From assembly GCA_011049545.1 (NCBI GenBank), contig DRHQ01000052.1, forward strand, positions 1 through 33,393: a DNA stretch of 33,393 nt. Reading direction: 5' to 3'. The DNA comes from Candidatus Aminicenantota bacterium (GTDB taxonomy: Bacteria > Acidobacteriota > Aminicenantia > Aminicenantales > Aminicenantaceae). Made by a program: the position numbers and the translations under genes. The notes beneath the pieces were generated by a model. That model saw nothing but the letters and a program-made list of their open reading frames with translations. It was not told the DNA's origin and did no database searches. Below are positions 15,982 to 30,932 of this stretch, one piece after another; the stretch's first letter is position 1, and each line of letters begins with the position of its first letter.

Positions 15982-17304
15982 TTAGTTGGAAACTTTTATT
16001 TGCCAAGATTTGACTTCGTACAAAGCTCCCATTGAAGGTAGAATTTCAAGAGCTTCTAAAGCCTTATCATAGTGCAGTACTGTGTGTTTATCAAAAAGAA
16101 TATCTTTAGCTATAATTGCGCCAAAAAAACCGTCTCCTTGATCCAATTCCACAAAAGCATTAGGCGCATAAATTGCACCATAAAACTCAGAACCTTGGTC
16201 AATATAAATATCTCCTGTAAAGCCTGGAGTCCCAAAAAGCACAAACTTGGTGGGGTCTTGGGATAGATTGTTTATAGAAGATGTCAGGTCCATCTCAAAA
16301 CTTCCACTTCCCATAATTATTTGAAGCCTTGCGCCGACAGCTATATCAAGCCTTGAATTCTGGTCCATGTAGAAATCGCCTGTTATATAGAGGATAACAT
16401 CATCTTCAATTGTCACCACGGAGTTCGCTTCCATTGTAAAAGAGCCATATTGGCCGCTCAGGAAAATCGAATCCGTGCCGCTCATTGAATAATCGCCCAT
16501 CGATGTAAGGGTGCTAGGAGGAGTAATCTGAGGCAAATCTACTTCATAATCCAATGCCCGTTTTTCACCATCAATATTTGCTCCGGGATCGGTTATTATC
16601 ACCGATTCTGGATCGCTACCATGACCAGATAGTGCATCGCCGGCTAAATCAGCACTATTGTCCATATAAATAGCACTGAAATCGCCCGAGTTAGTTCCGA
16701 TATCTCCGTCCGAACCCACATTGCCAGCATTATCATAGTCTCCATTCCTGGTATCATAACTATCAATCGCTACACCCTGATCGATCATTATTCCATCTTC
16801 CGCAAAAGCTGCAAACTTAAAAGGAGGGTATCCACCTAACTTTGATCTTACTGTCCTGATTACTTCTTGATCCCCGACATAAGAAACTGTACCTCTTGAT
16901 TCCACTATAGGATGATCTGCATCGGGATCTACAATCCTTATCCCTACATCCCCTATCACATTCCCTCCAGCAGCCTGGAAAGAAGAAATGCCCATCGTCC
17001 GCAAGGTATCATCACCTGTCCAGCTTGAGATATTTCCATAATTCAATTCCCAGATTGCTCTTTCCACCCCAGCTTCAGCCAGAGAGAGGGCTACGGAGGA
17101 CTTGTAAGACTTAGTAGTGAGCCTGTTCTCAAATGAGAGTTGGTATAAAAAAGGAACAGCAAGAAGAAGCAAGACCATCATGATAAACATACCCACAACT
17201 AGGACAAAGCCTTTTTCCTCATTCTTGCTTTTATCAATCCCTCTTTTAAGATTCCAGTTTATAACACTTTTTCTTTTAGCATCACTGCATCTTGTCTTAT
17301 CCAT
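15982..17304 (-). CDS. PilX-like minor pilin with long beta-rich tail (pilX'')
   Basis: A 440-residue protein. A basic N-terminus ends in NEEKGFVLVVGMFIMMV, a class III pilin signal (cleavage after Gly32) with Val where most pilins have Glu at +5, as in PilX/GspK-type tip subunits. SLAEAGVERAIWELNYG then matches the paralogue at 18402-18920. Residues from about 270 repeat short beta units with Gly/Asp turns (YITGDFYMDQNSRLDI, GDIYIDQGSEFYGAIYAP, LHYDKAL), suggesting a beta-helix passenger. I recall similar tails under a domain of unknown function (DUF7305-type). I chose ATG 17304 over GTG 17313 because AGGTG overlaps that GTG. It is last in its unit, 23 bases after pilW'. Confidence 0.82.
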   Translation of the reverse strand: MDKTRCSDAKRKSVINWNLKRGIDKSKNEEKGFVLVVGMFIMMVLLLLAVPFLYQLSFENRLTTKSYKSSVALSLAEAGVERAIWELNYGNISSWTGDDTLRTMGISSFQAAGGNVIGDVGIRIVDPDADHPIVESRGTVSYVGDQEVIRTVRSKLGGYPPFKFAAFAEDGIMIDQGVAIDSYDTRNGDYDNAGNVGSDGDIGTNSGDFSAIYMDNSADLAGDALSGHGSDPESVIITDPGANIDGEKRALDYEVDLPQITPPSTLTSMGDYSMSGTDSIFLSGQYGSFTMEANSVVTIEDDVILYITGDFYMDQNSRLDIAVGARLQIIMGSGSFEMDLTSSINNLSQDPTKFVLFGTPGFTGDIYIDQGSEFYGAIYAPNAFVELDQGDGFFGAIIAKDILFDKHTVLHYDKALEALEILPSMGALYEVKSWQIKVSN

Positions 17305-17327
17305 TTTGCTCACCTTTTTTATTTTGG

Positions 17328-17951
17328 TTAATCAGATTTATTCCTCAGCTTCACTCCAGTTTTAAAGGTCTCCTGGAAGGTGCGACCCAACTGACTCTGG
17401 GTCGTAACCAGCGTAATATCCACGCTGGATACTTGATCGAAACTTGATACAGCAGAAAGATCCACACCTCCAGAGCTTAACTGAAAAGAACTAACTCTTG
17501 TGGCTATAGTTCTGCTGCTGTCTGCTCTGTTGCTAACCCCATCATTTGCGTCAATAATTCTCTCCAACCTGTTAGGATATTCAGAATTTAAACGATAGAC
17601 GATATAGTCAAACTGACTGTCAATATCGATTATAAGGCCATTCGAATCAATAGAGGAAACTTGAAGAATAAGACAGTCTGTAGAAGTTGTATAGACATCC
17701 CAGTTCGGCATAACCTGGATCGCTTCTTGCACATCTCGGGAGACATAATTAAGCACCTGCCTGTTATCCCGAAGTACATCGGACTTGGCGGTTCCGTGCA
17801 AAAAATACCGCTGTCCGGCAACATAGAGAGAAAGCATGGCCAGGATCATAAAAGAGACGATAGTAACGGTTACTAATACCTCAACAAGGGTAATACCCTT
17901 TGGCTGGTATTTTTTTGGCTTGAATCTTCTAGATTTCTTTGAAGTCATCAT
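17328..17951 (-). CDS. PilW-like minor pilin (pilW')
   Basis: A 207-residue prepilin-like protein. The class III signal KPKKYQPKG|ITLVEVLVTVTI is followed by the hydrophobic helix and a Glu at +5. Pattern NRQVLNYVSRDVQEAI after the helix is typical of PilW/GspJ-type proteins (compare MYFLSRDIKSIG in the gene at 24134). Size is near that of GspJ. The start region ATGATGA overlaps the pilV' stop, giving translational coupling. A second ATG three bases downstream is equally possible. It is expected to act in the tip complex with pilX', pilV' and pilX''. Confidence 0.85.
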   Translation of the reverse strand: MMTSKKSRRFKPKKYQPKGITLVEVLVTVTIVSFMILAMLSLYVAGQRYFLHGTAKSDVLRDNRQVLNYVSRDVQEAIQVMPNWDVYTTSTDCLILQVSSIDSNGLIIDIDSQFDYIVYRLNSEYPNRLERIIDANDGVSNRADSSRTIATRVSSFQLSSGGVDLSAVSSFDQVSSVDITLVTTQSQLGRTFQETFKTGVKLRNKSD

Positions 17952-18382
17952 TTTCTATTAATTCCCTTCCTGGTTATATAAGTGACAACTTCTTTCCGCA
18001 TCTGTTTTCCGCGGTAGGACCAGAGAACACTGACTGTTAATTTTTTGATGTCATCCCCTAAAGAATCTTCGATATTTACGGCTCCGCTGCTACTTTCCAG
18101 CAAAGAGAGACTTTCATTCGTAAAAGAACTGTCCAGAGTCAAGATATCATTAAAAGGCATATTTCGAATAAGTTCTAATTCTTTTTGAATGGACTGAGTA
18201 GCAATGACTGTTCGTCTCATTCTGGAAAGGACGTTAAAGCCATGGAGAAAGCAGCTAAGGAGAGCAATCAAAGCCACGCCGAAAATCACCATGGTGACTA
18301 AAACCTCGATATAAGTAAGTCCCTCTTCTCTTTTTTTTCTTTTGATGGCCGTTTCTTTTCTCTTATTTGTTGGTTTCTGCAT
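17948..18382 (-). CDS. PilV/GspI-like minor pilin (pilV')
   Basis: A 144-residue prepilin-like protein. A very basic leader ends in KKREEG|LTYIEVLVTMVIFGVALIAL, with Glu at +5. The post-helix region (TQSIQKELELIRNMPFNDI) is the usual PilV/GspI pattern. It starts 19 bases after pilX' and overlaps pilW' by 4 bases. It is about 20 residues shorter than the paralogous pilV at 25362-25856. Confidence 0.85.
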   Translation of the reverse strand: MQKPTNKRKETAIKRKKREEGLTYIEVLVTMVIFGVALIALLSCFLHGFNVLSRMRRTVIATQSIQKELELIRNMPFNDILTLDSSFTNESLSLLESSSGAVNIEDSLGDDIKKLTVSVLWSYRGKQMRKEVVTYITRKGINRK

Positions 18383-18401
18383 ATTATTCTCTCTCCTTCA
18401 C

Positions 18402-18920
18402 CTAGATAGTGCTTCCCTGTACACTAGATGCTGGCATTTGCTTTTGGGGAAAGGAGTATACCCAGTTATATCCACTCCTTTCCAATTCCACTCTGGTAGT
18501 CCTCTCCAAATACACTCTGGCAGCCTTGCCCTCTGCGAGAGGGCTGGTAAAGGTCACCCGACCGGTAGATTTCACCTGAGGATTCTCTCCATCAGGATCT
18601 TCGACTCTTATCTCGATATCCCCGATCACATCGCTGGCAGGAGCTTGATGAGAAGAAATAATCATTGTCCTCGATGCACTATCCCCTTTCCAGTTTGAAA
18701 TATCTCCATAATTCAGCTCCCAGATCACTCTCTCAACCCCAGCTTCAGCCAGAGAGAGGGCTGCAGAGTAATTGGCAGATTTATCAGTGACCTTGTTCTC
18801 AGGAGATGACTGGAATAGCTGCGGAACAGCAAAAACGAGCAAGAATGCCAAGAGGGTCATTCCAATAATTAGGATGGAACCATCCTTCCGACCCCTTGTT
18901 ATTTTTATTATTACTTGCAT
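18402..18920 (-). CDS. short PilX-like minor pilin (pilX')
   Basis: A 172-residue protein, first in the second minor-pilin set. RGRKDG|SILIIGMTLLAFLLVF is a pilin-type leader and helix lacking Glu at +5. SLAEAGVERVIWELNYGDISNWKGD and VIGDIEIRVEDPD match the N-terminal 190 residues of pilX'' closely, whereas the beta-rich tail is absent. It is therefore either a short paralogue or the truncated donor/recipient of a duplication. An AGGAGG site supports the start. Its upstream region contains the C9/C6 tract at 19026-19043. Confidence 0.8.
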   Translation of the reverse strand: MQVIIKITRGRKDGSILIIGMTLLAFLLVFAVPQLFQSSPENKVTDKSANYSAALSLAEAGVERVIWELNYGDISNWKGDSASRTMIISSHQAPASDVIGDIEIRVEDPDGENPQVKSTGRVTFTSPLAEGKAARVYLERTTRVELERSGYNWVYSFPQKQMPASSVQGSTI

Positions 18921-19896: not shown

Positions 19897-22800
19897 TTAT
19901 CTAATGACCCTGAAGATTTCCCTCCAGGATCTAATCTTGAGTAAAGCACCGATCGCCTGCTCCAGTTTCTGGATAGTCGAGTCATATTCCTGAATATAGA
20001 CCTCTCTCTTTCTTGTGCCATCCGCAGCTCTCTCTCCTTCGCCAAACGTTACTGCTGCTCTTGTTTTTATGGCAAGCGCTATGCTTTCCTGGGGCCCAGA
20101 AGCAGTAACAAAGGCAGTTCCGCCTATCATACTTCCGGCTACTGTTTGGACGAATCTTGCATAAAGCTTCCCTACCCCGACTATGCTCTCGCAAGGATCG
20201 ACACTCTCTATACTTCCTGTCAAAGTACTAAAGTAAACGATATAATCAGCCACCTTGGGATCAGCCCACACTCTATCTCCACTAATGAAATCTCCCACAT
20301 CTTTTTCTGCTGGCAGGTTGAGAATGCTATCGTTACCGAGATACCACTCTACCTCAGGAGTAGGTGCATCCTTAAGAGCAATAAAAGAGTAGTCAGCATC
20401 ACTCGGAGCTCTATCGTCTCCACCTGTCCCGAAAAAGAGCCGGGGAATTGTTCCTCCTGTAACATAATTCATCCAAACTGCTGGTTTGCTTATAATCGGA
20501 TAATTGTTTGAATCTTCATAGATTACCACTGCTTCCCAGGAAGTGGGGTCTTGATATTCTATACTAACATCAACTTTCCACACTCTTCCGTCCAAATCTG
20601 CGACATAAACGCGATCTGCATGCCCATCCTGGTCAATATCTATTATCGAAGGAGACCCGGGAATGGTGTTAGGAATATTCCAGCCTAACCCAGCGGTGGT
20701 GTCCTCTTCCCCTGCATAGAAGCCCCAAAAATATTCTCCTGTCTCTGCATCTACAGCATAAAAAACATTGCCAACTGTATCACTCGGAACATTGTCATAG
20801 CCCGATCCCATAAAGGCAAGCCAGGCATCCTCTCCGTTCTTTCGGATTTTACCCACTACGGGAATAGACCAGGTCTCTCCTAAAAAATCATGAGTGAATT
20901 CCCAGAGCGGCTGGGGATTATCAGGATCAGTAATATCCAGCGCAAAATAATAGTTAGTTCCCCCTGCCAGGGCACTTCCGTTTCCAGATCCCTGACCAGA
21001 GATGAGAATCGTTGTCCACTCTTGGCTGGCATCTCCATTAGCATCTATATAAACATCGGCAACCATCGGACTCCCGTCCACATAAATATCTCTTGAAAAA
21101 TACCTCTCCCCCGTAGCAGCGTCGACTGCCCACATGTTTTTCAACTTGGGAAGAAGGTTATAAGGGATAAAGCCCCACAATTCTTCTCCTGTAAGAATAT
21201 CAAAACAATGAATCATTCCGTCATTCGCGCCTACATAAACTACTTTGCGTCTGTCAACCCATGTATTCAAAAAATCCTGGTATCCATCTCCCATTATAGC
21301 AGCCGTTCCATCTGGCGGACCGACGACTACGGGATTGGAGTGGTTGCTGTCTCCCAATTTCCAATCGCGTCCCTCTCCCCTTACATAATCTATCAGCCCT
21401 TCATTATCGTTGTTTACATCCTGTAGAATCGGACCCAAGGTACCAACACTAGAAGCAGTGAAGTCGAGTCTGCTTAAAACAGAATCCACAGGAGTAGCCG
21501 TGTATACTGTCCTACTGGCTGCAGAGCGGGCATCCAGAAGCTCCCCAACATCCCAGACTACCTCAACTCCAGAGGGAACAATCTCCCTTCCTGAAGACTC
21601 GGATAAATCAGGACGACTGACTGTCCTGAGAACAGAATAAGATGTAGATTCAGGAGTCATCCCGGATAGATCATAAGCTCTAAGGTGTCCTTCCCAGGAA
21701 GGAAAATAAAAAGTGCTGGCGAGAAGATACTTTTTTTCCTGACCGCCGTCATCAACATTCGTCACAACAACAGAGGTACGAGAGTATTCTCGTTTGTCAA
21801 CATGGATATACTCCATTTGTATCTCATCAATTAAAGGAGTATCAAAGGATGCGCCTGAAAATCCTTCTATCACATCCTCGGGTGCAGACAGGATGGCTTT
21901 CCACTTGAGCTTGGAGCCAAAGTGATTAAATGTATGAATTGGAAGATTGGTATAATTCTTTATATCATTAGCCTCAAAACTTTGAAAAAGCTCCCAATTT
22001 CTTCCATCATTATTAGATACATAAAACTCGACTTTAAGGCCATCTCTCGATTTCCCCCGGGTCCTCATCTTAAGATTTGAGATCTCCACCTTGGTTATCG
22101 CATAGAGCTCGGGGTCAAGTTCGGGTGAAAGATCAGTCGACCAGGCTTCTCCATAGGTAGTATAAACATTAGCTAATTCGTTTATAATCAGATAATAATC
22201 CCCAGAATCGTTGGCATCGGCAAAAATGAGATCAATATCTCCATCCTGGTCAAAATCAACGGATACGCCCATATCCACATCATGAGGAAAAGGTGTAATG
22301 GGCAGACAATCATTAAAGCATACCCATTCTAAATTTAACGGAAGACCTCCGCCTTCTTGAAGGCCCTTGTTTTCGAACATCCACATCCTGGCATCATTCC
22401 CAGCCCGCCATCTGTCATTGGCACACATTATATCGAGCCACCCATCTTGATTAAAATCTTCAATATTGGTTGTATCGGTACCTGTGCAGTCTGGATTGGG
22501 AATTGGAATTTCATGACGAGTAAAGTATCCTGTGCCATCATTCTCATAAAAAGCTAAATAGGGATAATCCTCAACTGAACCGGCCACGATATCTATATCT
22601 CCGTCTTTGTCAAGATCACCGGCATCGATTGAAGAGCCTTGCATCCCTATCGTAAAACCTGGTGATAGGTCATAATTTAGCTCGGATATGTCCCAATTAT
22701 TAATGTGAAAATTGGCTGCTCCGGGATTTCTCACCAGAAATATTTGATCCTGACTGATAACCAATACATCTATATCTCCGTCTTGGTCTATATCCACGGA

Positions 22801-23481
22801 GGTCAAGTGGTCTGCTGCCCATCGACAATAGATCCCGTCGCTCATGAATCTGTTTGTAAAATCCAAGTTTGGAGATTGATTGTGAGGATTAAAATCTGGG
22901 TCAGTTGCCGTTCCGACATTGATATATATGGCAGCCACAAATTGATCGTAAACTGCGTCATCATCATCATTCTTATAGAAGAAAAAATCGAGTAATCCGT
23001 CATTGTTGTAATCTGCCACAGTTATAGAAGCCGGTCCAACCGCCAGACCTGTCTCATAGACCTCAGTAGGATCTATCTCAAAAATAAGACCATCATCATC
23101 TATTCCATCCATATCAAGATCTTCAAATTTATTTCTCATCAGAATCAGTCTATCATCGTTGCCGATATCCAGACCAATCAAATCAGGATAGCCATCGCCA
23201 TCAAAATCACCCGCATCACAGACATAAATTTCTGATCCCATACCGGTAGGTGATGTAATCTCCAAGTTACCCCCCAACCAGTTCAACGATATCGGTCCAG
23301 AAGGCCAGTAGGCGACTGAAGTGTTGTCTATGTCTTTATAATCTTCGGTGTTGAAGTTTTCGGTAAAAATTCCCCCCAGATACTCTACGCATTCTTCTTG
23401 AGCCCAAAATTTTATAACAAAAAAGCAGATCAGTATGAATAGCGGCAAAAATAGCACCGTGGTTTTCTTTTTTTTAATCAT
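19897..23481 (-). CDS. pilY1: PilY1-like pilus tip protein with FG-GAP/VCBS-like N-terminal half
   Basis: A 1194-residue secreted protein with a Sec signal (about 1-27). Residues 85-430 carry seven DxDxDG-type calcium motifs, beginning at 92, 121, 157, 230, 289, 342 and 409 (such as DFDGDGYPDL, DIDQDGDIDV), in the spacing of FG-GAP/VCBS integrin-like blades. Residues 745-1090 are the PilY1/PilC C-terminal propeller: VVYVGANDGMIHCFD, GEELWGFIPYNLLPKL, VDGSPMVADVY and the calcium loop DIDQDGHADRVYVADLDGR (948-966). Classical PilY1 has a von Willebrand A domain at the N-terminus; none is seen. PilY1 sits at the pilus tip for adhesion, surface sensing and control of retraction. It lies 30 bases after pilX and ends its unit. 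Confidence 0.9.
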   Translation of the reverse strand: MIKKKKTTVLFLPLFILICFFVIKFWAQEECVEYLGGIFTENFNTEDYKDIDNTSVAYWPSGPISLNWLGGNLEITSPTGMGSEIYVCDAGDFDGDGYPDLIGLDIGNDDRLILMRNKFEDLDMDGIDDDGLIFEIDPTEVYETGLAVGPASITVADYNNDGLLDFFFYKNDDDDAVYDQFVAAIYINVGTATDPDFNPHNQSPNLDFTNRFMSDGIYCRWAADHLTSVDIDQDGDIDVLVISQDQIFLVRNPGAANFHINNWDISELNYDLSPGFTIGMQGSSIDAGDLDKDGDIDIVAGSVEDYPYLAFYENDGTGYFTRHEIPIPNPDCTGTDTTNIEDFNQDGWLDIMCANDRWRAGNDARMWMFENKGLQEGGGLPLNLEWVCFNDCLPITPFPHDVDMGVSVDFDQDGDIDLIFADANDSGDYYLIINELANVYTTYGEAWSTDLSPELDPELYAITKVEISNLKMRTRGKSRDGLKVEFYVSNNDGRNWELFQSFEANDIKNYTNLPIHTFNHFGSKLKWKAILSAPEDVIEGFSGASFDTPLIDEIQMEYIHVDKREYSRTSVVVTNVDDGGQEKKYLLASTFYFPSWEGHLRAYDLSGMTPESTSYSVLRTVSRPDLSESSGREIVPSGVEVVWDVGELLDARSAASRTVYTATPVDSVLSRLDFTASSVGTLGPILQDVNNDNEGLIDYVRGEGRDWKLGDSNHSNPVVVGPPDGTAAIMGDGYQDFLNTWVDRRKVVYVGANDGMIHCFDILTGEELWGFIPYNLLPKLKNMWAVDAATGERYFSRDIYVDGSPMVADVYIDANGDASQEWTTILISGQGSGNGSALAGGTNYYFALDITDPDNPQPLWEFTHDFLGETWSIPVVGKIRKNGEDAWLAFMGSGYDNVPSDTVGNVFYAVDAETGEYFWGFYAGEEDTTAGLGWNIPNTIPGSPSIIDIDQDGHADRVYVADLDGRVWKVDVSIEYQDPTSWEAVVIYEDSNNYPIISKPAVWMNYVTGGTIPRLFFGTGGDDRAPSDADYSFIALKDAPTPEVEWYLGNDSILNLPAEKDVGDFISGDRVWADPKVADYIVYFSTLTGSIESVDPCESIVGVGKLYARFVQTVAGSMIGGTAFVTASGPQESIALAIKTRAAVTFGEGERAADGTRKREVYIQEYDSTIQKLEQAIGALLKIRSWREIFRVIR

Positions 23482-23511: not shown

Positions 23512-24123
23512 TTATGTTCCTGCCCGTTCAAGGACCAATTCTATTTCTAACCTTGTGGTCGTAATAGTGTTTCCTATCTCGACAGTCCCGATGCAGACCA
23601 AAATAGCATCGGAAGAGTCAGGAATTCCCCCTCCAGCCTCATCATCAATCAAAAACACAGTGTACCTGTAACGATTGTCCGGGCTGCCCTCTGTTTGAAC
23701 AAAGGTCTGTCGACAAAAAATAACATTTTCTAAATCAGAAGTTCCATCCCAGTCAGAATCAATCAGGTTCAGAAGTTCTATATCGCTCAATCTTCTAAAA
23801 TAATTATCCGATTGAGGATCATCAATCCCTGAAGGCTCAATGACATAATGACCGTCAAAATGAGCCCAATCGCCGATTGAAAAATACTCTTCAATTTCCG
23901 TCCAGGCAACATCAAACCCTGCTTCAGCAGCATTATAGGCCTGCTGTTGGGTCCGAATGTTTCCGGCAACCTTGGGACCGGTGGCTGTCACCTGGAGAAG
24001 CACAATCCCGACAACTTGCAGAAAAGCCAGCACAATGACGACAATAATCAAGGCCATTCCTTTCTCATGCTTCGAAGCCGGCAATGTCCCGTTTATTCTC
24101 GGAAAGCTCGTTTTTTCCCTCAT
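23512..24123 (-). CDS. pilX: PilX-family minor pilin
   Basis: A 203-residue protein with HEKG|MALIIVVIVLAFLQVVGIVLLQ, a class III pilin leader and helix without Glu at +5, as is usual in PilX/GspK. GNIRTQQQAYNAAEAGFDVAWTEI is the classic PilX N-terminal signature. The C-terminal part contains acidic loops. It lies 10 bases after pilW and 30 before pilY1, the order found in other type IV pilus minor-pilin operons, where PilX helps to connect PilY1 to the pilus tip. It is more typical than the two PilX-like proteins of the second set. Confidence 0.88.
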   Translation of the reverse strand: MREKTSFPRINGTLPASKHEKGMALIIVVIVLAFLQVVGIVLLQVTATGPKVAGNIRTQQQAYNAAEAGFDVAWTEIEEYFSIGDWAHFDGHYVIEPSGIDDPQSDNYFRRLSDIELLNLIDSDWDGTSDLENVIFCRQTFVQTEGSPDNRYRYTVFLIDDEAGGGIPDSSDAILVCIGTVEIGNTITTTRLEIELVLERAGT

Positions 24124-24133
24124 TTTATCCTCT

Positions 24134-25324
24134 TTAATTTGTACCGCTGTTATATAGGCTTAAGGACATGTTTCTGATTTGGGCAGTCGACTCAAGCAAA
24201 AATCTTCTATGCTTATCCATTTCGTCTCCTGCAGGAGAATCAGCAATAGCAGGTTTTCCGTAGATATACCTCATAGCATCTGAAGGAGTTCCTGAAAAAC
24301 CAATATAAGGATTTGCTGTTTTTCCAAGAATTAAGAATCTCACAGAACGAATCCCAGCCGAAACTTCATCATCATTCCAATTGAAGCTTTTATCACCCCC
24401 ATCACCCCAGTTCAGGAAATCATTCACATCAATTATAGTATCACTGTTATTGTCATCAAGCTGCTGGTCTGCATCCATGTCACCATGATATTGGAATTGG
24501 AGATCCTCGATGTTTAGAGCAAGAGCCAAATGTTCATAACTATCACTTATTGGATTCCATTGGGAAACATACATAACTCCTGGTTCCCCTAAATATCCGT
24601 CTACTCCCACGTGGCCACCCGGATAGCTGCCATCGACATCAAGCCAGTATGTTTTAAGCTCGATAAAGGTGACAGTGCCTCCAATATAGTCATCTGGATC
24701 TCCACCTGGATTCAGGTTCAGATCTTTCGGCACTTTCCCGTTGACTCTATCAAATACGATCTGGTTCGTAACGAAATTTACTGATGTGATTTTACCCACT
24801 TCTCCCTTTTGAACATTTAACTCAGGGTTAGGGAAAACAATAATCAATCTGTTTATATATCCCAGCGTGTCAGCGGGATAGGAAGTTGCGGTATAAGGAT
24901 ACATGTCAAATTGATTTGGTTCAAACGTAACAGTGTTCGAACCAGGATCAAAGCTTTGAATGATGAGTCTTAAGGGGTCTGAGTTTCCAAGAAAAGTTAG
25001 CCTGTCAGGATAAACCGGGGGCCCGCCCGAACTATCATTGTTATCTCCCTCCAGGAACGCGTGAGAAAATTGCAAAGGCAAGCCAGCTCCTATGGATTTT
25101 ATATCTCTGGAGAGAAAGTACATGGCAGCCCGTACATTATGCTGAATGTCTGCAAATTGCTGCTGGTCGACAGATACTTTGTTGCTCTTCGTGTATAGAG
25201 ATAACGTTGCTACAATGATACCCAGCATGATTGAACTGCCGATTAAAACCTCTATTACAGTAAACCCGCGCCTAGAAGAAGCATATAAAGATGAAAACCT
25301 TCGATTTGATATTTTGGCCTTCAT
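24134..25324 (-). CDS. pilW: PilW-family minor pilin
   Basis: A protein of about 396 residues with SSRRG|FTVIEVLIGSSIMLGIIVAT, Glu at +5, then VRAAMYFLSRDIKSIGAGLP, the PilW pattern. The remaining ~300 residues are larger than GspJ and include a calcium-like DMDADQQLDDNNSD loop and aromatic beta segments. Start choice: ATG 25324 has GAGAGG six bases upstream, whereas the in-frame ATG at 25351 lacks a site. Together with fimT, pilV, pilX and pilY1 it forms the first tip-complex operon. Confidence 0.88.
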   Translation of the reverse strand: MKAKISNRRFSSLYASSRRGFTVIEVLIGSSIMLGIIVATLSLYTKSNKVSVDQQQFADIQHNVRAAMYFLSRDIKSIGAGLPLQFSHAFLEGDNNDSSGGPPVYPDRLTFLGNSDPLRLIIQSFDPGSNTVTFEPNQFDMYPYTATSYPADTLGYINRLIIVFPNPELNVQKGEVGKITSVNFVTNQIVFDRVNGKVPKDLNLNPGGDPDDYIGGTVTFIELKTYWLDVDGSYPGGHVGVDGYLGEPGVMYVSQWNPISDSYEHLALALNIEDLQFQYHGDMDADQQLDDNNSDTIIDVNDFLNWGDGGDKSFNWNDDEVSAGIRSVRFLILGKTANPYIGFSGTPSDAMRYIYGKPAIADSPAGDEMDKHRRFLLESTAQIRNMSLSLYNSGTN

Positions 25325-25361
25325 TTTTTCCTCTCTTTTAAGCTTATTCATAGCTATCCGC

Positions 25362-25856
25362 TCACCTGCTTATAACCGTGTTTACGTCAGCCCGGACTTT
25401 ATATTCGGCAGGACTGGCGATAATGTTATCCAGCTCCACTTGTGCCTGGAGTCCTGTAAAGACCAGAACTCTCACGTTCCAATAAAATCCTGACGCCACG
25501 AGCTGAGTTATTCTTCTGTAATCAACTATTCCATCACTGTTGATATCCATCAGTTCATTAATCGGGCTTAAGGATAAGTTGGACAACTCATCGGCTGTTA
25601 GGTTCCTCAGAAAGTCAATCTGTTGCTGAGCTAAAAAAGTTGCATTTGTCATCGAGTCTGAGCGATTATTATTCATCACGCTCAAACAGAAAAGTTGGGC
25701 CAATCCTAATAAGGCAACACCCACTAGGGCTATCCCCACCACAACTTCTATCATAGAAAAACCTTTGCTTTTAGTATCATTTCTGGAATTATTATCTAAC
25801 GAACCCTCTTCGGGAACCTGTGATTTTTTATCAATAATCTCTCTCTTTGTAATCAT
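25362..25856 (-). CDS. pilV: PilV-family minor pilin
   Basis: A 164-residue protein with a long 32-residue leader ending TKSKG|FSMIEVVVGIALVGVALLGL, Glu at +5. ATFLAQQQIDFLRNL after the helix is the PilV/GspI pattern. It starts 2 bases after the fimT stop and has a GGTGG ribosome site overlapping the fimT end. A helper subunit of the pilus-tip complex. Confidence 0.87.
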   Translation of the reverse strand: MITKREIIDKKSQVPEEGSLDNNSRNDTKSKGFSMIEVVVGIALVGVALLGLAQLFCLSVMNNNRSDSMTNATFLAQQQIDFLRNLTADELSNLSLSPINELMDINSDGIVDYRRITQLVASGFYWNVRVLVFTGLQAQVELDNIIASPAEYKVRADVNTVISR

Positions 25857-25858
25857 TT

Positions 25859-26422
25859 TTATCCACCTTCAGCTACTATGTATTGAATTGAGCCCCCGGC
25901 TATAACCTTAATAATTCTCTGGTCAGGTTTGCCATAACCTGCTAATTTAAGACTCTGGAGAGTGATGCTTCTTTGTGTGGAGCTGTAGTTTGCGACAAGA
26001 CCCAACGGTGAGAATTCGACAGTATCATTCGGAAAATCTACATTCACTTGAAATTCAAGTGGGATTGATTTTCTTAGAAATCCACGCATTATATTCCATT
26101 CGTTCGGATTATCTTCTTTTTCAATGTAATAAACCCAGCCTGCACCCACAGCCTCAAACCTCACCCTATGGTTTAATTTTGTTTTAACAGCCTGAAATTT
26201 TGCCCTCTGTAAATTCATCATGACTTGTCTTGCTGAACCCTCTATCTTTCTTGACTCCAAAGTGTTAATGATGTTCGGGTAGAATATAAAAGCCATGAGG
26301 CCTATTATCGCTACAGAAATCATAATCTCAACCAAAGTAAAGCCTTTCCGGGCCGATGCAGATTTATCCCTGGTTCTTGCTCTTTCATGTTTGTGCTGAG
26401 AAATTCTTAATATATTTTTCAT
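25859..26422 (-). CDS. fimT: GspH/FimT-family minor pilin
   Basis: A 187-residue protein with SARKG|FTLVEIMISVAIIGLMAFIF (Gly27, Glu32 at +5), then NTLESRKIEGSARQVMMNLQRAKFQAVKT, the GspH/FimT signature. The C-terminal half has the expected beta strands (VEFSPLG, RIIKVIAGGSIQY). It is the first recognised pilin gene of the first minor-pilin unit. No counterpart exists in the second set. Confidence 0.88.
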   Translation of the reverse strand: MKNILRISQHKHERARTRDKSASARKGFTLVEIMISVAIIGLMAFIFYPNIINTLESRKIEGSARQVMMNLQRAKFQAVKTKLNHRVRFEAVGAGWVYYIEKEDNPNEWNIMRGFLRKSIPLEFQVNVDFPNDTVEFSPLGLVANYSSTQRSITLQSLKLAGYGKPDQRIIKVIAGGSIQYIVAEGG

Positions 26423-28787: not shown

Positions 28788-30932
28788 CTACCTGACAACA
28801 ACGCGGCTTTGGCCTGTCTCAAACATCAGGGTTTGGCCTGTAGGCTTGTTCGCCGTGACACTCGTGACCTGGACTGTGCTCTCACCCTTACTCACAGCTT
28901 GAAAGATAAGCGTGGCGATACTTCCTGTTCCTTTAATCCCTTTGCCAATATCAGTACTTGAAAATCCTATAGTGCAGACTCCGGAGGAATTATCGATATT
29001 CTTCAAAAAGGGCACATCTTTTCCGAGACGGTTAAGGAATTCCCTTTTAACGACTTCTTTCAATTTCAATGACGCTGGATCGAAGCTTATGTTCAAAGAC
29101 ATGCTGCTGACATCCTCTTGAATTCTGGCATTGACACTAACCCGAAATTCTCGATTCTGGGGAACTTCAAAATTAGCCGGCGTCAGAAAAACCCGGTTTT
29201 GTTCCCTTCTTCTCGCCATATCCTCTACCTCTGTCCTTTGCCTCGCTCTTCGCTCAGCAAGCGCCTCCTCAGGCGGGCCACGCCTTGCACTTGCCGCAGG
29301 AGAAATTCCGCCAAGGTCAACCCAGAGAGGTTTCAGATCTTCCTCGCTTACAGGAACTTTGCGAATAATATAGGGAGTAATGGTCAGGATGACATCCGTT
29401 TGCTGGATTACCTGGTCAGTGCTGGAAAAAAGTCTTCCCAGGATAGGGATGTTCTTAAGCCCGGCTATGCCGCTTATGGTTTTTCTCTCTTCATCCTTTA
29501 ACAAACCAGCCAGCAGGTTTGTCTCCCCATCCTTAAGCCTGATTATATTCTTCACTTCCCTTGTGGCAATAATGGGAATATCGGCATAGCCGGCTCCGCC
29601 GAGGGATTTTATTTTTATATCTAATTCCAAGGTGACTTCATTCTCAAAATGAATCGTGGGCGTAATCTTGACATCGATTCCGACATCCTCGTACTGAAAG
29701 GAAGTCAGAGGCTGCTGAGCGAATCCTCCTGCTGCGATAGGAGTAAATGTTGTTCGCGGAATAGGGATTTTATCTCCTACCACGTACTTTATTTCTTCCC
29801 CGTCAATACCCCGAAGTCTGGGTTGGGAGATTATCTTGGTGTCTGAATCTGCTTCCAAAAACTGCACAACAGCGCCAGGAAGAGCGACTTGAAAATGTTC
29901 AGATTTGGAAAAATTTATGCTCTTCAGTTTAAACCAGCCTTGCTCATCCGCCCCAGACCCTTCAGGGCCAGTATATCTGAAGCCTATTAGACCCTGTTCT
30001 AGCTCTAGACCCAACTGTCTCAGTCTCACGCGAGAAACTTCCATTATTTCCAAATCGATTATGACTTCTCCCTTTGGCTTATCCCAAATCTTGATGATTT
30101 TTCCCGCCAACTCTATAACAGCAGGAGTATCCCTTAAGGTGACAGTGTTTATATTTTTATCAACAATGATATTCGGTGCTTTATATTGAGTGCGAAGCAT
30201 CTGCGTGAGAGAAACGCGAATATCCTCAGCCCTGATATTGGAGAGATAGAAGGTTTTGATTGCATTCAGCTCATACTGAATTCTTTTTTGGGGCAGGTCA
30301 GGAGCAATAATAATTGTTCTCTCATCTATAATCCTGTAAAAATTCTTGGAGGCCAAACAAAGCGAATTGAGAGCCTGTTCAAAAATCATATCAACAAGGT
30401 CAATGGAAAAAGTAATATCCCTAAATTGTTCATCAAAGAGAACATTTACTCGAGCATGTTTTCCCAAAGCTTGAAAAATTGAGCGGAGATTGGCATCGAT
30501 AAATTTCAAGTGAATCTCTTCTTTATCAACCTTAAGCTTAATCGGGGGTTCAATCCTAATCTCCTTGGGTTCCTCTTCTTTAACTTCTTCCTCGATAAGG
30601 CTTTTCGCCTCTCCAGCTATCATTCTGTTTAAAGGGTCATAGTAAAGAGCTTTTTCATACTCAACGAGAGATTCCTTCTTTCTCCCCTGAAAGGCAAGCT
30701 TCCGAGCTTTTGTAAGATGAGCGGTGCTGGCAGCAAGTTTAGCCCGGAAAAGTGCAAGACGATAGACAGAATTATCAGGACTCTCCAGCGCTGCCCTTTG
30801 GTAATAGCTGACGGCCTCATCCCAATTTTTGCCGAGTGCTGCCTCAGTGCCTAACTTATAGCTTCGACTTAATCCCGCACAACCCCAAAAGGTTAGAGCA
30901 ATTATTGTCAAAAGTACTATTTTTCTCATCAT
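28788..30932 (-). CDS. pilQ: type IV pilus secretin with TPR N-terminus and cohesin-like C-terminus
   Basis: A 714-residue outer-membrane lipoprotein secretin, the gated pore for the pilus. Residue 18 is the lipobox cysteine (LTFWGC). TPR-like helices occupy about 24-115. A secretin N-domain (LKFIDANLRSIFQALGKHARVNVLFD) begins near 142 and an N1-like domain follows to 285. The secretin core is 288-525: VALPGAVVQFLEADSDTKIIS, VGDKIPI and the diagnostic RLKDGETNLLAGLLKDEERK...GIAGLKNIPILGRLF. Residues 580-714 (VFLTPANFEVPQNREFRVSV, then MSLNISFDPASLKL) read as a cohesin-like beta domain. AAGGAG precedes the start, which overlaps the pilP stop in ATGA form. Confidence 0.9.
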   Translation of the reverse strand: MMRKIVLLTIIALTFWGCAGLSRSYKLGTEAALGKNWDEAVSYYQRAALESPDNSVYRLALFRAKLAASTAHLTKARKLAFQGRKKESLVEYEKALYYDPLNRMIAGEAKSLIEEEVKEEEPKEIRIEPPIKLKVDKEEIHLKFIDANLRSIFQALGKHARVNVLFDEQFRDITFSIDLVDMIFEQALNSLCLASKNFYRIIDERTIIIAPDLPQKRIQYELNAIKTFYLSNIRAEDIRVSLTQMLRTQYKAPNIIVDKNINTVTLRDTPAVIELAGKIIKIWDKPKGEVIIDLEIMEVSRVRLRQLGLELEQGLIGFRYTGPEGSGADEQGWFKLKSINFSKSEHFQVALPGAVVQFLEADSDTKIISQPRLRGIDGEEIKYVVGDKIPIPRTTFTPIAAGGFAQQPLTSFQYEDVGIDVKITPTIHFENEVTLELDIKIKSLGGAGYADIPIIATREVKNIIRLKDGETNLLAGLLKDEERKTISGIAGLKNIPILGRLFSSTDQVIQQTDVILTITPYIIRKVPVSEEDLKPLWVDLGGISPAASARRGPPEEALAERRARQRTEVEDMARRREQNRVFLTPANFEVPQNREFRVSVNARIQEDVSSMSLNISFDPASLKLKEVVKREFLNRLGKDVPFLKNIDNSSGVCTIGFSSTDIGKGIKGTGSIATLIFQAVSKGESTVQVTSVTANKPTGQTLMFETGQSRVVVR

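Follow-up and report, generated by a model that had tools for sequence, protein, structure and literature searches.

The window analysed here, a stretch of 33,393 nucleotides from an Aminicenantes genome, carries on its reverse strand a pilY1 gene together with a set of minor-pilin genes (Table 1). The pilY1 reading frame, for which we obtained the same coordinates as an earlier sequence-only reading of this DNA, starts with an ATG just behind a purine-rich stretch, and the gap to the preceding PilX-like gene is 30 bases. The C-terminal half of its product matches Pfam T4P_PilY1 (PF05567) with 59.6 bits against a cut-off of 28.1 (3.5e-16), residues 707-973 match the crystal structure of P. aeruginosa PilY1 (PDB 3hx6; 5e-24), and DIDQDGHAD at residue 948 pairs with DNNSDGVAD of 3hx6 in the alignment, which bears out the PilY1/PilC propeller motifs and the calcium loop already noticed in this half. 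Genes resembling FimU, PilV, PilW and PilX are located directly upstream, and FimU-PilV-PilW-PilX-PilY1 is the standard order of PilY1 operons. PilW and PilX accompany pilY1 at all 17 loci compared, which represent several families, and FimU and PilV do so at most of them. The genome also encodes two PilT-type ATPases above the curated cut-off; together with the minor-pilin operon, this points to a retractile type IVa pilus, with its tip as the natural setting. Judged by its core, its calcium loop and its operon, the product is a PilY1 protein.

Table 1. Features of the pilY1 locus (positions in the window; residue numbers of the PilY1 protein in brackets)
Feature	Position	Strand	Basis and remarks
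pilY1 ORF	19897..23481	-	1194 aa; from N- to C-terminus an FG-GAP propeller, a beta-sandwich and the PilY1 core
N-terminal hydrophobic segment / putative signal peptide (1-28)	23398..23481	-	hydrophobic helix 5-26 in AlphaFold2 model, low pLDDT
FG-GAP calcium propeller (about 72-449)	22135..23268	-	Pfam FG-GAP_3; AlphaFold2 (six four-strand units predicted, each with a motif); profile matches in the PDB; Foldseek matches
Calcium motif blade 1, DFDGDGYPD (92-100)	23182..23208	-	motif scan; conserved in 38 orthologues
Extra DxDxDG motif DLDMDGIDD (121-129)	23095..23121	-	poorly conserved; strand 3-4 loop
Calcium motif blade 2, DYNNDGLLD (157-165)	22987..23013	-	motif scan and orthologue alignment
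Calcium motif blade 3, DIDQDGDID (230-238)	22768..22794	-	motif scan and orthologue alignment
Calcium motif blade 4, DLDKDGDID (289-297)	22591..22617	-	motif scan and orthologue alignment
Calcium motif blade 5, DFNQDGWLD (342-350)	22432..22458	-	motif scan and orthologue alignment
Calcium motif blade 6, DFDQDGDID (409-417)	22231..22257	-	motif scan and orthologue alignment
DANDSG, strand 2-3 loop of blade 6 (422-427)	22201..22218	-	candidate functional site; putative function
Beta-sandwich, no family match (about 456-566)	21784..22116	-	AlphaFold2 strands
PilY1 propeller (710-981)	20539..21354	-	Pfam T4P_PilY1 match
Canonical PilY1 calcium loop DIDQDGHAD (948-956)	20614..20640	-	aligned to 3hx6
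PilX-like minor pilin	23512..24123	-	Pfam PilX_N; adjoins pilY1 in 17/17 loci
PilW-like minor pilin	24134..25351	-	weak Pfam PilW; present in 17/17 loci
PilV-like minor pilin	25362..25856	-	N_methyl; conserved neighbour
FimU/GspH-like minor pilin	25859..26422	-	N_methyl and weak GspH; conserved neighbour

Across the lineage, PilV, PilW and often PilX show conserved DxDxDG-like loops (23512-25856, reverse strand; e.g. DINSDGIVD in PilV); the entire tip complex, minor pilins included, may bind calcium. The reverse strand of the window also encodes a PilQ/GspD-like secretin (28788-30932) with TPRs at the N-terminus and a cohesin domain (Pfam, 2.3e-10) at the C-terminus, and behind pilY1 a second set of pilin-like genes (15982-18920), which is found at the equivalent place in close relatives only and whose last member encodes a DUF7305 / ice-binding-like adhesive-domain protein.

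The N-terminal half of the protein

The N-terminal half matches Pfam FG-GAP_3 with 68.9 bits against a curated cut-off of 26.9 (5.6e-19), and its profile finds murine CRTAC1 (3.5e-14), the Psathyrella velutina lectin PVL (1e-7), integrin alpha-4 (1e-6) and also integrin alpha-V in the PDB. AlphaFold2 models of the whole protein (built from 38 sequences; pLDDT 85.3, pTM 0.75) and of residues 29-455 (pLDDT 84.0, pTM 0.82) both show an all-beta propeller, in which the blade motifs lie in strand 1-2 turns within confident regions and not in disordered linkers. A Foldseek search with the predicted propeller ranked CRTAC1 first, followed by aldos-2-ulose dehydratase and integrin alpha-V, with PVL among the matches, the superpositions being loose (TMq at most 0.49, rmsd at least 6 Å). 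Of the 50 top-ranking matches, the six-bladed PfCyRPA gave the highest TMt, again for loose superpositions (0.59, compared with at most 0.49 for CRTAC1, PVL and the integrins). FG-GAP repeats with DxDxDGxxD calcium loops are the feature shared with CRTAC1, the integrin alpha-V and alpha-4 chains and PVL, with significant matches of both profile and fold.

The motif Dx[DN]xDGxxD occurs at residues 92, 121, 157, 230, 289, 342 and 409, and once more at 948 in the PilY1 propeller. When residues 30-560 were shuffled 5000 times at the same composition, Dx[DN]xDG was found on average 0.19 times and at most three times, compared with the seven copies observed. The sequence-only reading had described seven repeats spaced 50-70 residues apart; the number holds, but successive spacings are 29, 36, 73, 59, 53 and 67 residues. 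The unevenness is due to the motif at 121, an additional one that AlphaFold2 places in the strand 3-4 loop of the first unit; without it the spacings are 65, 73, 59, 53 and 67. The key aspartates of the six other motifs are invariant or nearly so among the 38 orthologues; the motif at 121 is poorly conserved, being present in some of them and missing in others.

In the models six four-strand units follow each other, each with one DxDxDG motif between strands 1 and 2. This is also the site of the calcium loop in the calcium blades of integrins, the resemblance suggested before. Since only two strands (33-41 and 72-75) precede the six units, six calcium blades are favoured over seven, and the poor conservation of the loop with the motif at 121 leaves a seventh less well supported. 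By the strand order of the model, the propeller thus probably has six calcium-bearing blades, and the seven blades previously deduced from the seven motifs are not supported. In this the protein would differ from the integrin alpha and PVL propellers, which are seven-bladed (PMC3123361), as it does in being fused to a pilus-tip protein.

No vWA profile matched the protein or any of its 38 orthologues in Pfam, and DUF4114 was likewise missing from the Pfam matches of the orthologues. The motif scan recovered no MIDAS-type DxSxS in the N-terminal half, as had been noted; the sole copy in the protein is at residue 625, beyond that half. Only short helices are predicted for residues 29-640, and the model therefore contains no Rossmann fold. 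Profiles, motif scan and model together rule out a vWA domain concealed in the N-terminus. Structure prediction and HMM searches, with an all-beta propeller, matches to FG-GAP_3 and T4P_PilY1 and none to vWA, and the agreement of all 38 orthologues thus support the central claim of the sequence-only reading, i.e. that the N-terminal half of this PilY1 is an FG-GAP calcium propeller located where a vWA domain would be.

A part of the protein which that reading did not mention is the predicted beta-sandwich of about 110 residues (about 456-566), which joins the FG-GAP propeller to the PilY1 core, is conserved in the lineage and has no match in Pfam or the PDB. Within the propeller, the calcium loops are the most conserved class of loops and most others are variable. 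The DANDSG loop of blade 6 reaches a conservation of 3.54, compared with means of 3.27 for the calcium loops and 2.38 for the other strand 2-3 loops. Because it connects strands 2 and 3, it should be located on the face opposite the calcium loops, and we consider it a candidate binding site.

Distribution and origin of the FG-GAP head

Full-length orthologues occur throughout the order, with a match in 48 of the 60 relatives searched. A survey of PilY1 homologues in Acidobacteriota and one further phylum detected FG-GAP_3 in all 38 aligned orthologues of the lineage (Pfam), compared with none of 38 PilY1 proteins taken from elsewhere in Acidobacteriota, from further families of the same class and from records of another phylum. 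The lineage's own propeller profile did not match any of these 38 either. These outside proteins contain DxSGS in 30 of 38 cases and the TDG of vWA in nearly all, and complement factor B and PilB, a pilus protein with a vWA module, are matched by the N-terminal part of their profile. About 40 further PilY1 proteins from the phylum of the WOR-3 records do not show such a propeller, with the exception of one in assembly L173, whose 3.1-kb contig is 90% identical to Aminicenantes L007 and probably represents binning contamination. Matches in plasmid records were restricted to the C-terminal half of PilY1.

A single branch (SH-aLRT 99) separates the FG-GAP proteins from the others in a quick, unrooted tree of the PilY1 core that includes some long outside rows, and a single change therefore suffices to explain their distribution. 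Since the remainder of the phylum and other phyla have vWA heads, we infer that vWA was lost and FG-GAP gained. Borrowing of the propeller from a different FG-GAP protein encoded by this genome was considered and rejected, as no second FG-GAP_3 match was found there at E<=0.001.

Other arrangements were seen as well. One Aminicenantes assembly encodes three consecutive pilY1 genes that fall outside the FG-GAP clade (L040:1-9856), and the one with a complete N-terminus that was checked has DNSGS. PilY1 proteins of 1126, 1813 and 1628 aa (L110:2657-6034, L164:748-6186 and L171:961-5844, respectively) show neither FG-GAP nor the vWA motifs sought, and additional head types may thus exist.

A putative calcium-dependent pilus tip

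P. aeruginosa PilY1 and M. xanthus PilY1.3 (vWFA + PF05567) share with the Aminicenantes protein the C-terminal propeller with its calcium loop, the minor-pilin operon and an N-terminal domain of adhesin type. In contrast to their vWA domain with MIDAS, the Aminicenantes protein has an FG-GAP calcium propeller and a beta-sandwich. A precedent for a non-vWA head is provided by M. xanthus PilY1.1 and PilY1.2 (DUF4114 + PF05567), although their head, which has been proposed to bind exopolysaccharide (PMC13190605), is DUF4114, whereas Aminicenantes PilY1 has FG-GAP and lacks DUF4114. A 2026 survey of PilY1 identified vWFA and DUF4114 as the sole conserved N-terminal domains, at the level of sequence or structure (PMC13190605), and the one paper we found to mention both PilY1 and FG-GAP handles them as separate cases of calcium blades (PMC3123361). 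We found no description of an FG-GAP-headed PilY1 in the open-licence literature, where PilY1 with VCBS led to unrelated work only; the architecture may be present in domain databases as an unremarked entry. As far as sequence comparison goes, the FG-GAP head is a new, lineage-wide tip design on a protein whose kind, PilY1, is itself already known.

Published work attributes priming of the pilus to the minor pilins together with PilY1; it locates the variable N-terminal domain of PilY1 at the extreme tip and regards it as the likely source of specificity (PMC7541494, PMC13190605). By analogy with this placement, we think it likely that the protein caps a retractile type IVa pilus in Aminicenantes and that the FG-GAP calcium propeller, mounted on the beta-sandwich, is its binding end. 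The conserved C-terminal PilY1 propeller would bind the minor-pilin stack and prime pilus assembly, and export and assembly would bring the FG-GAP propeller to the very end of the pilus. Calcium bound between strands 1 and 2 of every blade would make it a rigid platform able to resist pulling force, and a polymer or a surface ligand might be bound by loops of the other face, DANDSG of blade 6 among them, in the way known from the FG-GAP propellers of integrin alpha chains and PVL-type lectins. More tentatively, and as a conceivable rather than a probable extension, PilY1 might be a general adaptor for interchangeable heads; in Aminicenantes, a lectin- or integrin-like propeller with multiple calcium sites would have replaced the vWA mechanosensor on one occasion and provided a calcium-dependent, force-resistant tip adhesin of new design for a specific environmental polymer.

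The explanation that competes best with a binding head, albeit an unlikely one, is that the FG-GAP propeller binds no ligand and serves as a calcium-stiffened spacer or plug (e.g. in the secretin vestibule of the primed machine), with the beta-sandwich or the minor pilins being responsible for adhesion; the N-terminal domain of M. xanthus PilY1.3 has indeed been proposed to account for the plug density in the vestibule region of PilQ (PMC7541494). The predominance of the calcium loops among the conserved loops would also fit such a role. However, the strand 2-3 loop of blade 6 is conserved as much as the calcium loops, and the nearest solved relatives, the propellers of PVL and integrin alpha, bind ligands. 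Very improbable, in our opinion, is a function outside the pilus tip, with the PilY1 propeller reused by a calcium-binding protein that is secreted or surface-located and might, for instance, belong to a type II secretion pseudopilus: the nearby secretin and pilus-like genes are divergent and strong PilM matches are found only on other contigs, but the FimU-PilV-PilW-PilX-PilY1 order is kept in 17 loci of several families and PilT is present. Finally, although the genomes are mostly metagenome-assembled, an artificial fusion of an FG-GAP gene with pilY1 by chimeric misassembly can be dismissed, as the same full-length frame recurs at 34-83% identity in many separate genomes, some of them single-contig, that represent several families, and the genome holds no other FG-GAP_3 match.

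What a type IV pilus holds is believed to depend on the N-terminal head of PilY1, and that of P. aeruginosa PilY1 has a part in surface-contact sensing. The lineage studied here has kept the pilus machinery without vWA, which raises the question whether vWA and its MIDAS are essential for surface sensing or just one of several swappable heads. The FG-GAP head is a defined domain that lends itself to expression and to tests for calcium and ligands.
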